Shown piece after piece: positions 19,853-24,890 of a DNA stretch of 64,000 bases. Origin of the DNA: Salinadaptatus halalkaliphilus (GTDB lineage Archaea > Halobacteriota > Halobacteria > Halobacteriales > Natrialbaceae); contig NZ_RBZW01000058.1 of NCBI RefSeq assembly GCF_006543045.1, positions 124,001-188,000 on the forward strand, written 5' to 3'. The notes beneath the pieces were generated by a model, which was given only the letters and a program-made list of their open reading frames with translations, ran no database searches and was not told where the DNA came from. A program made the translations under genes and the position numbers. Position 1 is the stretch's first letter; the number at the start of each line of letters is the position of its first letter.

Positions 19853-20203
19853 ATGAACAATTCGACGGCGTCGACCGGGGGGACACGGACGAACAACTCG
19901 ACGGTCCCGCGAGCGGTTATTCACAAGCAGATCCTCGATGTCGCGGAGTTGCGGCCCGATGCATCGATGGAAGCGATCGCCGAGGGGGTAAGCGGCGCGA
20001 CCGTTTCGATCGTCACGAACGTCCTCGAGTTCGTCGGCGACGGCGGGACTGATATTCTGGACGACGACCCATCGCCGCAGGTTCGGCGGCGAGTGCCGTC
20101 TCTGCCTGGTCGGTCTCGTTGGCCGGTTGCTCGTCCGTCGCGGCCGTCACGTTCATCGGACTATCGGTCGCTGACGGGACGATGTACACCTCCGTCACCG
20201 TGA
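19853..20203 (+). CDS. Small haloarchaeal protein with a helical conserved core, probably altered C-terminus
   Basis: The frame codes 116 residues. Residues about 20-63 (AVIHKQILDVAELRPDASME to VLEFVGD) look like a conserved haloarchaeal helical domain of the HTH type, with normal codon use. After about residue 75 the sequence turns basic, Ser/Arg/Pro-rich and is exactly antisense to the gene at 20013-20456, so this tail is probably not original. A GGAG sits 8-12 bases before the ATG. The native 3' end seems to have been lost by a deletion joining two convergent genes. Confidence 0.5.
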   Translation: MNNSTASTGGTRTNNSTVPRAVIHKQILDVAELRPDASMEAIAEGVSGATVSIVTNVLEFVGDGGTDILDDDPSPQVRRRVPSLPGRSRWPVARPSRPSRSSDYRSLTGRCTPPSP

Positions 20204-20456
20204 GCGTCCCGGTATCGTCGTTGACCGTCGCGACGTCTCCCACCTCGAGCCGTTCGAGTACGTAACCGGGTTGCGGACCGAGTTCGACCGTTGCATACCG
20301 TGTCTCGGACTCGGCATCCCCCTCCAGATCGTCGCCGACGCTCGAGACGACCGCAATTCCGGCGAGGATCACAGCCAAGAGGAGAATGACCACGAATGCG
20401 TCGATAATTAGCGGACGCCTACGGGTGATTGGTTGCCGATCGACGATCCGGCCCAA
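20013..20456 (-). CDS. Single-pass membrane protein of unknown function
   Basis: A 147-residue protein: a short Arg-rich cytoplasmic start, one membrane helix (IIDAFVVILLLAVILAGIAV) and an external beta-type domain with TVELGPQPGYVLERLEVGDV. The last 20 residues (QSRRRRRTRGRS) are antisense to the plus-strand gene's conserved core and are likely read-through. The start appears to be TTG at 20456, 5 bp after the stop of the upstream lipoprotein gene, so it would depend on coupling with it. I recognise no family. Confidence 0.5.
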   Translation of the reverse strand: MGRIVDRQPITRRRPLIIDAFVVILLLAVILAGIAVVSSVGDDLEGDAESETRYATVELGPQPGYVLERLEVGDVATVNDDTGTLTVTEVYIVPSATDSPMNVTAATDEQPANETDQAETALAAEPAAMGRRPEYQSRRRRRTRGRS

Positions 20457-20460
20457 ACGG

Positions 20461-20997
20461 TCAGTGGCGGGTTTCGACCTGGGTGCTGATCCCGCCTCCC
20501 TCGCGAAGCGACACCGTCGTCAGCGATCTGTCACCGGACGAATAAGTCGTCGTCATGTTCGCTCGCGCCGAGCCGGATTCGATGTCCGTCGCGTAGGTTC
20601 CGGGTTCGTTGACGACGATCTCGAGTGTCGTATCGGCTGGCAGTTCGTCGGTTTCGTCGAATACGGAGGCCCCGTCGTGATCGATGCGGACTGTGAGATC
20701 ACGTGCGTCCGTATCGGCGTTCGTGACGGAGATCGCATGGAGGTCGCCCGGCTCCGTTTCGGTACGGTTGTCACTGTCGACGATGTCGATACGTTCGATC
20801 GGATCGGACGGAGTCACGTCGGTGAACTCGTCGTCGGTCCTGTCGCCGTCAGCGTCGTCGTTCTCGCCATCGTCCCCGGTCGAATCGGTCGACTCCACGG
20901 GTGAACCATCTGTGGTATCAGAGCGGTCGCCGAGACAGCCGACGATGGAGACGAGTCCGACAGTCGTTCCGAAGCTGACGAGCGTGCGGCGGTCCAT
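20461..20997 (-). CDS. TAT lipoprotein with one predicted external domain
   Basis: A 178-residue exported protein. MDRRTLVSFG is the twin-arginine start, and the lipobox ends IVGC. An acidic Asp/Thr/Glu linker of about 45 residues follows, then a beta-rich domain (RIDIVDSDNRT to ISTQVETRH) that reads like an Ig-type or carboxypeptidase-regulatory-like fold. I used ATG 20997 rather than the GTG at 21009. It leads a probable two-gene unit with 20013-20456. Function is unknown. Confidence 0.7.
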   Translation of the reverse strand: MDRRTLVSFGTTVGLVSIVGCLGDRSDTTDGSPVESTDSTGDDGENDDADGDRTDDEFTDVTPSDPIERIDIVDSDNRTETEPGDLHAISVTNADTDARDLTVRIDHDGASVFDETDELPADTTLEIVVNEPGTYATDIESGSARANMTTTYSSGDRSLTTVSLREGGGISTQVETRH

Positions 20998-21631
20998 ATC
21001 GGTCGCCACATCGGTCTTGGTGAAATCGTTTTTTCACGGCTCATAGACAGTCATGACAGGTGATAGTCGGCGCTCGCGTTGTCGTTCTCGACAGTCGGGA
21101 ACTCGAAACGAACACAGTCGGTAATCGGCGCTTACAACGCGATCGAACGGTGCGGTATCGACGGGACTGTCAGTACGAGATTCCGAACCCGAACGAATAC
21201 GGACTGGTTCGCAACGGTCGTCGGTATCGGTTGCTGGCTCCTTACAGAGTCAAGGTGGTGGACTCGATCACTCGTCAGCACCGGCGTACATCGGTGCTGG
21301 CGAGGAGAGGCCAGTGATCACGATCGTATCTCGTGAACCGTTATCACCACGAGTACGTACTCAATGGCGGTGCGGTAACCACGAGAGCGTCCCGCAAGTG
21401 ACGAGCTAGCGGTGCCACTGCACACCTGACCACACGACGGCTGTGCGACCAGTGAGTGAATCGTTGCAGTTGGTACTATACCAATCGCACCCCACCGGTA
21501 GCGACCGCTAGGGATATGCTCGTCCAACAATCACCTACACTCTCGAAATCGAGTGTTTGGACGCCGTACGATTGCCCTCGTTTATCACAGCAACCGATGA
21601 CACGCCAATACCCCATACGGGGGAGACGACC
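20998..21631. other. Long intergenic region, holds repeat B2
   Basis: This 634-bp region has lower GC and no frame with haloarchaeal codon use. It carries a diverged copy of palindromic family B at 21407-21480. The last 80 bp form the leader of the secreted protein at 21632, including a GGGGGAG ribosome-binding site. Confidence 0.55.
21407..21480. repeat. Palindromic repeat family B, diverged copy B2
   Basis: It aligns with the reverse complement of the copy at 26745-26828: shared blocks are GCCACTG, CACACCTGA and the end TTGCAG..TACTATA. It lacks the AAGTCAAT-like spacer of B1. Pairing of the arms is weaker than in B1. Confidence 0.55.
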
Positions 21632-21973
21632 ATGAAAGAAAGAGATCGAGTGACACTGTGCCAGCGTGCGATCGTCGTCGCGATGACCGTAAGTTTGCTC
21701 GCGTTGACCATCGGGGCTGGCGGTGCAGTTGCTCAGGATACCGAAGTCATCGAATCGGAGAATCAGACACAGACTGAAGAAACCGGCGAAGTGACTGCAC
21801 AGGAGACAGTCGAAGAAGAGAGCATAACAGAGATCGAACAATCGGAGACGACCACTGAGACGGTGGTCGAAGATTCGTTTACCACAACCGGTGACGATAT
21901 TTTCGACACCGACGCGTTCCTCGAGGACCTCACAGTTGAGATCCTCATGCCGGACGACGGGCTCTTCGAGTAA
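21632..21973 (+). CDS. Secreted Thr/Glu-rich small protein
   Basis: A 113-residue protein with a Sec-type signal (hydrophobic residues about 10-32, cleavage after AVAQ or nearby) and a mature chain rich in Glu and Thr (QTQTEETGEVTAQETVEEES). It ends in a more structured DIFDTDAFLEDLTVEILMP segment. A strong ribosome-binding site (GGGGGAG) lies 7 bases before the ATG at 21632. No repeat ladder is present, but it converges on the large repeat protein gene and, like its neighbours, is exported. Function is unknown; I see it as a possible accessory. Confidence 0.7.
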   Translation: MKERDRVTLCQRAIVVAMTVSLLALTIGAGGAVAQDTEVIESENQTQTEETGEVTAQETVEEESITEIEQSETTTETVVEDSFTTTGDDIFDTDAFLEDLTVEILMPDDGLFE

Positions 21974-22112: not shown

Positions 22113-23642
22113 TTACCCTTCCACCCAGACGTTCGTCGCAGCGACGGAGCCGAACTGGATGTTCTCGTTCTCCTGCATGCTCACCTGTGCCGCGTCGGAG
22201 CTGTTGCCGTTTTCGGCGATGGCGATTGCGGCTTGCTGTTCGTTGACGTTCTCCTGGGTGATGAACTGCACTTGCTCGAGCTGGGCGCTCGCGTGCTGTT
22301 CGGGGTCGTTGGTCTGGAGCGCGTCGTAGTCGTAGGCGAGTCCTTCGAAGCCGTCGACATCTTCGCCACCGACGGTCACGCTGGTGGTCGAGGTGACCAT
22401 GGCGTTCTCGTACTGGTGGCTCGGTCCTGCGTAGACGTTCAACGCGTCCGCGAAGCCGACCTGCGCGTTGAGGTTGGTCTGGAAGGCGAGCTGGACCGCG
22501 GTCGCCTCGCTTTCGTTGGTCGCGTAGGCGAATGCGGTGTTTTGCAGGTTGACGTTCATCTGTTCGGCGCTCTGTTGCTGGGTAACCTCCGAGGTAGCCG
22601 ACTGGATCTGCTCGTCGCTCTTCTTGTGGCGATCGTCTTTCTTGTCGTCGTAGAGCGACTCCGTCGTGATGTCGGTTTCGAGGACCGAGGTATCGTCGTC
22701 GACGCCCGAAGTTGCGACGTGCATGCCTTCGAGTCCCATGATGATGTTCTCGGCTTGCGCAGCACCAATCTGTTCGTTGAGGTTGGTCTGTTCGGTCACC
22801 TGGATTGCAGTGGCGACGCTGTCTTCGCCAACGGCGATGGCGACGGCACCGTCTTGCTGGTTGATGTTCGACTGATCGACTTCCTGTGCCTGTTCGATGT
22901 CAGCTGCTGCAGCCTGGTCGGCGAAGTCACCGCTCCCCGCGTAGACGTTGGTCGCGTTTGCAACGCCTTGTTGCAGGTTCTGGTTGGACTGCTGGGACTG
23001 CTGGATCGCGGTCGCTTCGCTCGCGTTCTCCGCGATCGCGAACGCGGTGTTCTGTTCGTTGTAGTTCAGCTGGCCAACTTCCTGGACCTGCGTCACTTCG
23101 GCCTCAGCCGACTGGTCGGGGTCGATGTCGGGCTTGTGGCCTTTCTTGTCAGCGATGCCCCAGCCGTCGAATGCCTTGCCGTCACCGTTGCCGATGAGGA
23201 CAGTAACTTCGCCGACATTTTCGAACTGGGTCTCTTCGACCTGGACGTTGTCAGCGGACGCGTCCGCGAACTGATCGTTGGAGTTGAGTTGGGTGGCTTC
23301 CTGGACCGCCGTGGCCTCGCCACCATCGATCGAGATCGAGGTTGCGTTCGCTTGCTGGTTGATGTTGACCTGGTCGACATCTTGGTACTGCGAGACTTCG
23401 ACGTCCGAGACCTGGTCACCGTTTGCGTGCGCTTCGATGTACTCGTCGAGGGTCATGTCGCCGAGATCGGCACCGAAGACCAGATACAAGCCTTCGTCGT
23501 TCTCGAGCGCGTGGGCCGTCGAGTCGCCGGGATCGTCGCCCGCGGCGGCAGCCGGCGCGCCGGCTGCGATCATCGCTACGGCGACTATACAGGCCATAAG
23601 AAGCGTCGTACACTGTGAACGTATCGTCGTCGTGGTGGTCAT
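22113..23642 (-). CDS. Secreted Gln/Asn-ladder repeat protein (candidate beta-solenoid/curli-like fibre subunit)
   Basis: A 509-residue exported protein with a Sec signal peptide (about residues 1-34). Residues 43-76 form a short N-terminal segment (LYLVFGADLGDMTLDEY). Five modules follow at about 81-134, 181-234, 247-302, 351-406 and 453-508. Each module is two 27-residue units with the pattern Q-x3-Q-x-N-x-N-x-Q followed by alternating Ala; for example QEVGQLNYNEQ and QQSQQSNQNLQQ are exactly 27 apart. Modules are separated by charged 46-48-residue spacers except between the second and third. The mature chain is free of cysteine and has no membrane anchor. Alternating Q/N/A residues at fixed period are the hallmark of beta-solenoids and functional amyloids such as CsgA, though the period differs from curlin's 22-23. 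Assembly into fibres is inference. Confidence 0.8.
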   Translation of the reverse strand: MTTTTTIRSQCTTLLMACIVAVAMIAAGAPAAAAGDDPGDSTAHALENDEGLYLVFGADLGDMTLDEYIEAHANGDQVSDVEVSQYQDVDQVNINQQANATSISIDGGEATAVQEATQLNSNDQFADASADNVQVEETQFENVGEVTVLIGNGDGKAFDGWGIADKKGHKPDIDPDQSAEAEVTQVQEVGQLNYNEQNTAFAIAENASEATAIQQSQQSNQNLQQGVANATNVYAGSGDFADQAAAADIEQAQEVDQSNINQQDGAVAIAVGEDSVATAIQVTEQTNLNEQIGAAQAENIIMGLEGMHVATSGVDDDTSVLETDITTESLYDDKKDDRHKKSDEQIQSATSEVTQQQSAEQMNVNLQNTAFAYATNESEATAVQLAFQTNLNAQVGFADALNVYAGPSHQYENAMVTSTTSVTVGGEDVDGFEGLAYDYDALQTNDPEQHASAQLEQVQFITQENVNEQQAAIAIAENGNSSDAAQVSMQENENIQFGSVAATNVWVEG

Positions 23643-24296
23643 GATTCGTTTGATATGAACCGTGAGAGTCTTTCTTTCTGCAACCCCACGGCGTGAACCG
23701 TCGTAATCCTATGACAGACTTTGTTATCTGTCAGTTGAAGCGCCGATGCGCCGGCCTACCGAATCGAAGCCGATTGCTTACGGGCAGAAACCGGTCGCTT
23801 CGACCCTGGCGAGAACGAGACGGCTCACTTGCTACCGTGTCACAGACGGTCACACCGGCGTTTCGCTCGAGAATGCGGCCCTGTGAGCGGAAACGTCTCA
23901 GCGAAGGCGACTGTTTCATCGAGAAAAGGCATCTCTTACTGGCCACGCTGGCCCGGAGGTGGTACCTGATTAGGATTCGGGGGCGGTCCTGCCGGGGATA
24001 TCGCGCCACCGTTGGCGATAGGTTGTTCGTATCGCTTCCAGTGACACACAGTCACAAGATGAAAACTGAGCCTGATTTACCCGACGAGGGTTTCATACTG
24101 TGTAAGTGGCGAATTCACCCTGAAACCGTTTGTCGGGTTCAAGTGGGACTCCGTGATGAGTAGCCAGTGGGCAACGCGTCACAACGGGGATGTCTCAGGT
24201 GTCGGCGGTACGACCCGTGACGAGCGCCGGCCACGTGGTTGGCGTGAGGACACACGGAACGTACCCTCCATGTGATGCGTGCCTCAGAATACAAAT
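23643..24296. other. Divergent control region between the two ladder-protein genes
   Basis: This 654-bp gap separates the starts of the genes at 23642 (minus) and 24297 (plus). The 156-codon plus-strand frame inside it is basic and Cys-rich with no signal or family match, so I do not call it a gene. A small GTGAC/GTCAC inverted repeat is at about 24038-24053. The length would allow extensive regulation or a lost gene. Confidence 0.5.
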
Positions 24297-24890
24297 ATGA
24301 AGCGCGCACTCGCAATCACACTGACGGTAGCGATGATCGGATCCCTCGCGTTTATGGGATTCGCAGGAACGGCAGCGGCACAGGAAGATCAAATCATTGA
24401 TCAAGCTGCAGAGAACGTTTCTCTCGACGCAGACCAACAGCAGGACCTGATGTCCGGTGACGCAGAAACTAACGTGAACGTCGATCAGTCTAACGACAAC
24501 GCACAGGTCGGCTCTGCGACCGCTGGTGACGCTGTTGCACTGAGCGGCGGTGGCGGTGCCGGCGCTGCTGGAGCTGCCCACGATAAGGGTGGAGCTGCAG
24601 CTGGCGCAGGTGGTGCTGGCGGTGGCGCAACTGCAGCCTCCGCAGCTGAAACCAACCAAGTTCAGGACGTGAACCAGATCAACGCCGCTGACGTCGATGC
24701 AACCGCCGAAAGCGGTGACGTCACTGGTGAGCAGAATCTGACGCAGGAGCCAACCCAGGAAGCTGAACAGGTTGACGAAGGCGATGTCGATATCGATGCA
24801 GGCCTCGATAATGAGGAGTTCTTCGGCGAACTGTCGGCTCTCTTTGAAGGATTCAGTAACTTCGATCCTGCTGAGGTCGGCGACACGTAA
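24297..24890 (+). CDS. Secreted Gly/Ala-rich protein with Gln/Asn motifs
   Basis: A 197-residue exported protein with a Sec signal (cleavage about after TAAAQ29). Two short ladder segments, TNVNVDQSNDNAQVG (about 58-72) and TNQVQDVNQINAADV (about 119-133), flank a silk-like Gly/Ala tract (84-116). The second resembles the VQEVGQLN unit of the divergent 509-residue protein. The C-terminus is acidic with FFGELSALFEGFSNF, a possible amphipathic helix. Codons are less GC-biased than in neighbours. I chose the ATG at 24297 over a GTG at 24279. It could be a minor subunit or nucleator of the same assembly; that is inference. Confidence 0.75.
   Translation: MKRALAITLTVAMIGSLAFMGFAGTAAAQEDQIIDQAAENVSLDADQQQDLMSGDAETNVNVDQSNDNAQVGSATAGDAVALSGGGGAGAAGAAHDKGGAAAGAGGAGGGATAASAAETNQVQDVNQINAADVDATAESGDVTGEQNLTQEPTQEAEQVDEGDVDIDAGLDNEEFFGELSALFEGFSNFDPAEVGDT

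Follow-up and report, generated by a model that had tools for sequence, protein, structure and literature searches.

A conserved five-module glutamine/asparagine-ladder protein of haloarchaea as a candidate amyloid-like fibre subunit

What is the role of a secreted haloarchaeal protein built largely from evenly spaced glutamines and asparagines, and is it akin to curli or any other known amyloid? This question is raised by a locus of Salinadaptatus halalkaliphilus lying in a 64,000-nucleotide stretch of contig NZ_RBZW01000058.1 (hereinafter the window). The gene, 22113..23642, sits on the minus strand and encodes 509 residues from an ATG, so that reading the same interval on the plus strand does not give the five-module protein described here; 99 of 125 Natrialbaceae genomes carry homologues. 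Inspection of the translation shows a signal peptide of approximately residues 1-34 (23541..23642, minus strand), with an arginine in the n-region, a hydrophobic core and an AxA cleavage region, in agreement with the original prediction of a secreted product. The cysteines of the protein are confined to this leader, leaving the mature chain Cys-free as had been noted; distant homologues do contain cysteine. Ten copies of the motif Q-x3-Q-x-N-x-N-x-Q are present, with first residues 87, 114, 187, 214, 253, 281, 357, 384, 459 and 486, whereas 5,000 shuffled versions of the mature chain contained 0.0044 on average and 1 at most, which confirms that the ladder is real. The modules holding these motifs are devoid of Lys, Arg and Pro and consist of 29% Q+N in the window protein, while the charge is located in the linkers (24% D+E). 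Conservation also extends outside the modules, to the segment LYLVFGAD (near residues 52-59) and to FDGW of linker 1. The gene evolves under purifying selection: comparison with three relatives of 77-79% identity gave a dN of 0.13-0.14, a dS of 0.54-0.79 and a dN/dS of about 0.16-0.25.

The ten motifs are arranged as two units in each of five modules, all on the minus strand: module 1, residues 81-134 (23241..23402); module 2, residues 181-234 (22941..23102), with predicted strands at 176-205 and 209-234; module 3, residues 247-302 (22737..22904); module 4, residues 351-406 (22425..22592); and module 5, residues 453-508 (22119..22286). Each is supported by the motif positions and a module profile. 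The original description was of a 27-residue unit, recurring exactly in module 2; a spacing of 27 holds for modules 1, 2, 4 and 5, with module 3 showing a spacing of 28. Likewise, the charged spacers of 46-48 residues are recovered for three of the intervals using the earlier boundaries, but just 12 residues separate module 2 from module 3, and spacers range from 10 to 84 residues among the homologues. The 27-residue unit was itself taken to be the repeat; we considered it as the rung of a solenoid and discarded it, since each module shows a constant asymmetry between its two units and the large proteins contain only whole pairs. In unit 1, two residues separate the last Q from the first A, and unit 2 continues as Q-x-G/A-x-A-x-A-x-N. 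The better repeat is a 54-residue pair of unlike units.

To count modules we ran an iterated profile of the 54-residue module on the fetched loci, and it found exactly five in all 55 large homologues (51 distinct sequences). Small secreted homologues detected with this profile mostly have one module, and a set of Bacillota genes have two. Whole-genome searches likewise returned five module matches in most gene-bearing genomes, other counts being mostly accounted for by a second large gene or small module-bearing genes. In 90% of 6,375 comparisons of modules across species, the best-matching module held the corresponding position, with 20% expected by chance. The five modules are therefore old and individually distinct, and do not constitute a freely expanding tandem repeat.

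Within Natrialbaceae the family is present in 26 of 29 genera, and a class-wide sample added five carrier genomes outside it; named relatives include Natrialba, Natrinema, Haloterrigena, Halobiforma and Natronorubrum, with Haladaptatus and Halalkalicoccus further off. No relatives were recovered from IMG/VR or phage collections, and the gene is therefore not viral. Pfam, NCBIfam and PHROGs assigned no family to the large protein: with a cut-off of E 1, Pfam gave no match for the window protein, nor with a cut-off of E 10 for the archaeal homologues and three Thermincola relatives, curlin included. Searching PDB sequences with the protein itself and with two profiles yielded chance matches only, and none of the searches pointed to any family whose known function is non-fibrous. 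Plasmid records (PLSDB) annotate its members as hypothetical or PGF-CTERM proteins, and we found no description of the five-module family in the literature on haloarchaeal amyloid proteins. The Bacillota genes belong to a metagenome-assembled genome labelled Thermincola ferriacetica (GC 36%), where three tandem genes (L091:6004-8316) each encode two modules with a different C-terminal region and no evident signal peptide. They lie near two YheC/D-type ATP-grasp genes, of the spore-coat-associated type, and a PGA_cap (capsule-synthesis) gene, so that the two-module product is possibly a coat protein using the same module. This genome is the sole carrier among 398 sampled from the Bacillota; hence, the bacterial branch is rare.

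Alternate residues of each module are near-invariant, reading V Q Q V Q N N Q / A A A N / S A A Q S Q N N Q G A A N. Across the five modules, column entropy averages 0.3-0.5 bits for most strand segments of this Q/N/A face (overall range 0.05-0.84), as against about 1.4-2.3 bits for nearly every segment of the opposite face. The parity of the first strand shifts by one at residues 198-199, and the same shift is seen in all five modules. This alternation is what a β-strand would show if one of its faces were exposed and the other buried and tightly packed.

An AlphaFold2 model of the full protein, built with 35 homologues, has paired long strands in every module, as expected of β-strand ladder modules, with block pLDDT values of about 70-91; the linkers fall below 50 and are disordered, and the overall pLDDT is 58.5 with a pTM of 0.54. 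Modelled alone, modules 2-3 reached a pLDDT of 68 and a pTM of 0.44, with module 2 strands at 177-197, 200-205 and 209-233. Thus, rather than a globular fold, the monomer is predicted to consist of β-stranded modules joined by disordered linkers. Foldseek gave no significant fold match for either model (best E 0.02, TM-scores of about 0.06-0.2), nor anything significant against viral models; the non-significant top hits were CsgA (8c50), FapC and a β-helical antifreeze protein for the full model, and FapC, CsgA, antifreeze β-helices and other parallel β-helices for modules 2-3, so that the weak hits rank consistently in the two models. VIA-align superposed 95 residues from all five modules of the full model on CsgA 8c50 at 2.6 Å with a Z of 3.4, below the level that would prove a shared fold, and gave no match for modules 2-3.

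These models also bear on a second arrangement of the strands, in which the modules would be hairpins of 27-residue strands and the five would close into an antiparallel tube or a flat sheet. DSSP assigns near-continuous strands of about 26-30 residues in the full model, broken only at the mid-module turn, and simple sequence arithmetic indicates that, given one bulge in strand 1, antiparallel pairing would place Q opposite Q and N opposite N in every module. Yet the structural near-matches, none of them significant, are nearly all parallel solenoids, β-helices and amyloids, and we regard such an antiparallel sheet or barrel as rather improbable.

The gene neighborhood offers further clues. 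Upstream of the large gene, across a 636 bp divergent intergenic region (23643..24278) that presumably holds the promoters of both genes, lies an ORF of 203 aa on the plus strand (24279..24890; probable ATG at 24297, MKRALAITL...) coding for a small secreted Q/N-rich protein. Its module halves are diverged and order-swapped around a Gly/Ala-rich insert, and the profile scores them at only 7.4 and 3.1 bits; it was identified as a partner because its leader and position are shared with the one-module proteins of relatives. In those relatives the same divergent place holds one to three small proteins with the leader MKRALxITLTVAxIGSLxFMGFAGTAAA, and a single clear module is seen in many of them. 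With a simple filter, a divergent small secreted Q/N gene was found at 34 of 55 loci (some of which are one genome fetched twice), including that on a Haladaptatus plasmid; Natronococcus, Halalkalicoccus and some Haladaptatus loci had no such neighboring partner. The small one-module proteins are likely to be minor subunits, acting as a nucleator, cap or branch. A 257-residue secreted protein found beside the small partners at one locus (L045:11298-12071), in which Q/N stretches flank a central acidic region, is possibly a partner with an inserted domain.

On the other side, a gene for a small secreted, very acidic Thr/Glu-rich protein (21557-21973, plus strand) is convergent with the large gene, and a close relative has a similar gene in the corresponding position (L036:9571-9918). 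Farther downstream are genes for a likely lipoprotein (20461-21009, minus strand) and a DUF4330-like membrane protein (20013-20456, minus strand); both are found there again in a single close relative (L040), a few others have one of the two, and most loci have neither.

Several homologues end in a PGF-CTERM segment (NCBIfam TIGR04126 in L049 and L050; PLSDB annotation), the tail of surface proteins processed by archaeosortase A, and at least these can be argued to remain on the cell. By inspection, homologues from Natronococcus, Haladaptatus and others have a Tat-like RRxY/RRDY leader. The window genome encodes archaeosortase A, but the window protein differs from such anchored proteins in lacking TIGR04126; like most homologues it terminates directly after module 5 without an anchor.

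The anchored homologues, the fixed number and position-specificity of the modules, and the LYLVFGAD and FDGW segments, which suggest extra specific contacts, would all suit a monomeric surface protein that does not polymerize: a stacked five-module adhesin, an S-layer-associated spacer or a ligand-binding rod, with the small proteins as its binding partners. The exposed ends of a stacked cross-β structure, however, normally need caps, and no capping domain is predicted, both termini being disordered or absent in the full model; moreover, the window protein and most of its homologues stop directly after module 5 and have no anchor. Accordingly, we consider a non-polymerizing monomer unlikely, though a serious competitor.

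We instead give an even chance to a structural protein that is secreted to the cell surface or into the biofilm matrix, with its five modules stacked into an amyloid-like fibre or sheet. After export and removal of the signal peptide, the five 54-residue modules would fold as long β-strand pairs, each pair being either a hairpin within one sheet or an arch linking two, their conserved Gln/Asn/Ala/Ser/Gly face packing tightly with the formation of amide ladders. The modules would then stack into a cross-β core with the acidic linkers looping outward into the brine, and monomers would join end to end, following the logic of FapC, to give an amyloid-like fibre or sheet in which the one-module proteins may serve as nucleator, cap or branch. 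In lineages with the PGF-CTERM tail, archaeosortase would anchor the large protein to the cell surface.

Haloferax biofilms stain for amyloid, with only a candidate gene having been offered (PMC4180959), and the archaeal amyloid proteins that we found in the literature are methanogen sheath proteins (PMC6242892). Against this background, a conserved, unannotated Q/N-ladder family found in most Natrialbaceae, usually with linked small genes, represents a testable amyloid candidate in cultivable organisms; its modules, free of Lys, Arg and Pro, would need to function at high salinity. More tentatively, it could be the first functional amyloid system of haloarchaea, in which a five-module major subunit is combined with a one-module nucleator or cap, unrelated in sequence to curli, Fap or MspA, and a single cross-β module serves both archaeal surface fibres and a bacterial (Bacillota) coat.

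Comparison with known amyloids places the family apart from curli and Fap in sequence. The curli subunits CsgA and CsgB resemble it in presenting Q/N ladders in short repeats and in pairing a larger with a smaller related secreted protein. Descent from them, as a CsgA/B family member exported to archaea, might further be suggested by two genomes of one related genus that code for secreted proteins in which true curlin repeats of 19 residues are arrayed in tandem (NDADVDQRNKAFVDQDGKN), above the Pfam cut-off (L140:4052-4789, minus strand; L141:3885-4508, plus strand). Yet these proteins do not match the 54-residue module profile; they form a separate archaeal curli-like family, possibly including the one archaeal protein with curli-like repeats that a 2012 survey of curli mentions (PMC3521004). 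In the window genome, searches with PF07012 (curlin) and PF03783 (CsgG) found nothing, with the E. coli control positive for the former and controls positive for the latter, and the 509 residues contain just one curlin core Q-x-G-x2-N. Moreover, the curli repeats are short (22-23 residues, versus a module of 54) and abutting, and their number in CsgA varies widely (PMC3521004, PMC12822426), whereas the modules are separated by linkers and always number five. True curli thus seem extremely improbable, and the initial assessment of a type distinct from curlin is borne out.

The MspA sheath amyloids of Methanosaeta and Methanospirillum (PMC6242892, PMC10593813) are likewise archaeal and secreted, with imperfect repeats in which G, A, N and Q are conserved. 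They differ in their repeats of about 80 residues and in belonging to methanogens with tubular sheaths, a separation that we draw from their description; no sheath protein was matched in any of our family searches.

The closer analogue appears to be FapC of Pseudomonas, with its relative FapB (PMC12392863, PMC12822426). These too are secreted, with a fixed number of imperfect repeats, linkers of variable length lying outside the core, a conserved array of Asn, Gln and small residues, and a large subunit accompanied by a related second one. Exactly three repeats are found in 94% of FapC genes, with variable linkers and a conserved Asn/Gln array (PMC12392863), and cryo-EM shows each of the three imperfect repeats forming one cross-β layer, linked by loops and held by an Asn/Gln hydrogen-bond array (PMC12392863; PMC12822426). 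The same combination of a fixed repeat number with linkers is seen here, with five modules in 55 of 55 homologues and spacers of 10 to 84 residues. The differences lie in modules of 54 residues, five rather than three, known here from sequence and predicted structure, and in the absence of any sequence match: the FapC motifs GN-x-G-x-N and G-x2-NQQN are both lacking in the large protein, and the module-family profiles matched no FapC chain in the PDB. The fap operon, outer membrane and FapF-type secretion are not expected in an archaeon, and no FapA, D, E or F was found among the neighbors of the large gene that were examined. By every sequence test made, then, the family is neither curlin nor Fap. 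It is because its design matches FapC while that of curli differs that we propose a stacked cross-β fibre with extruded linkers. The five-module protein is probably an amyloid-like fibre subunit of the surface or matrix that follows a FapC-like logic, and would be an independent instance of the FapC design of fixed repeat number, linkers and amide ladders.
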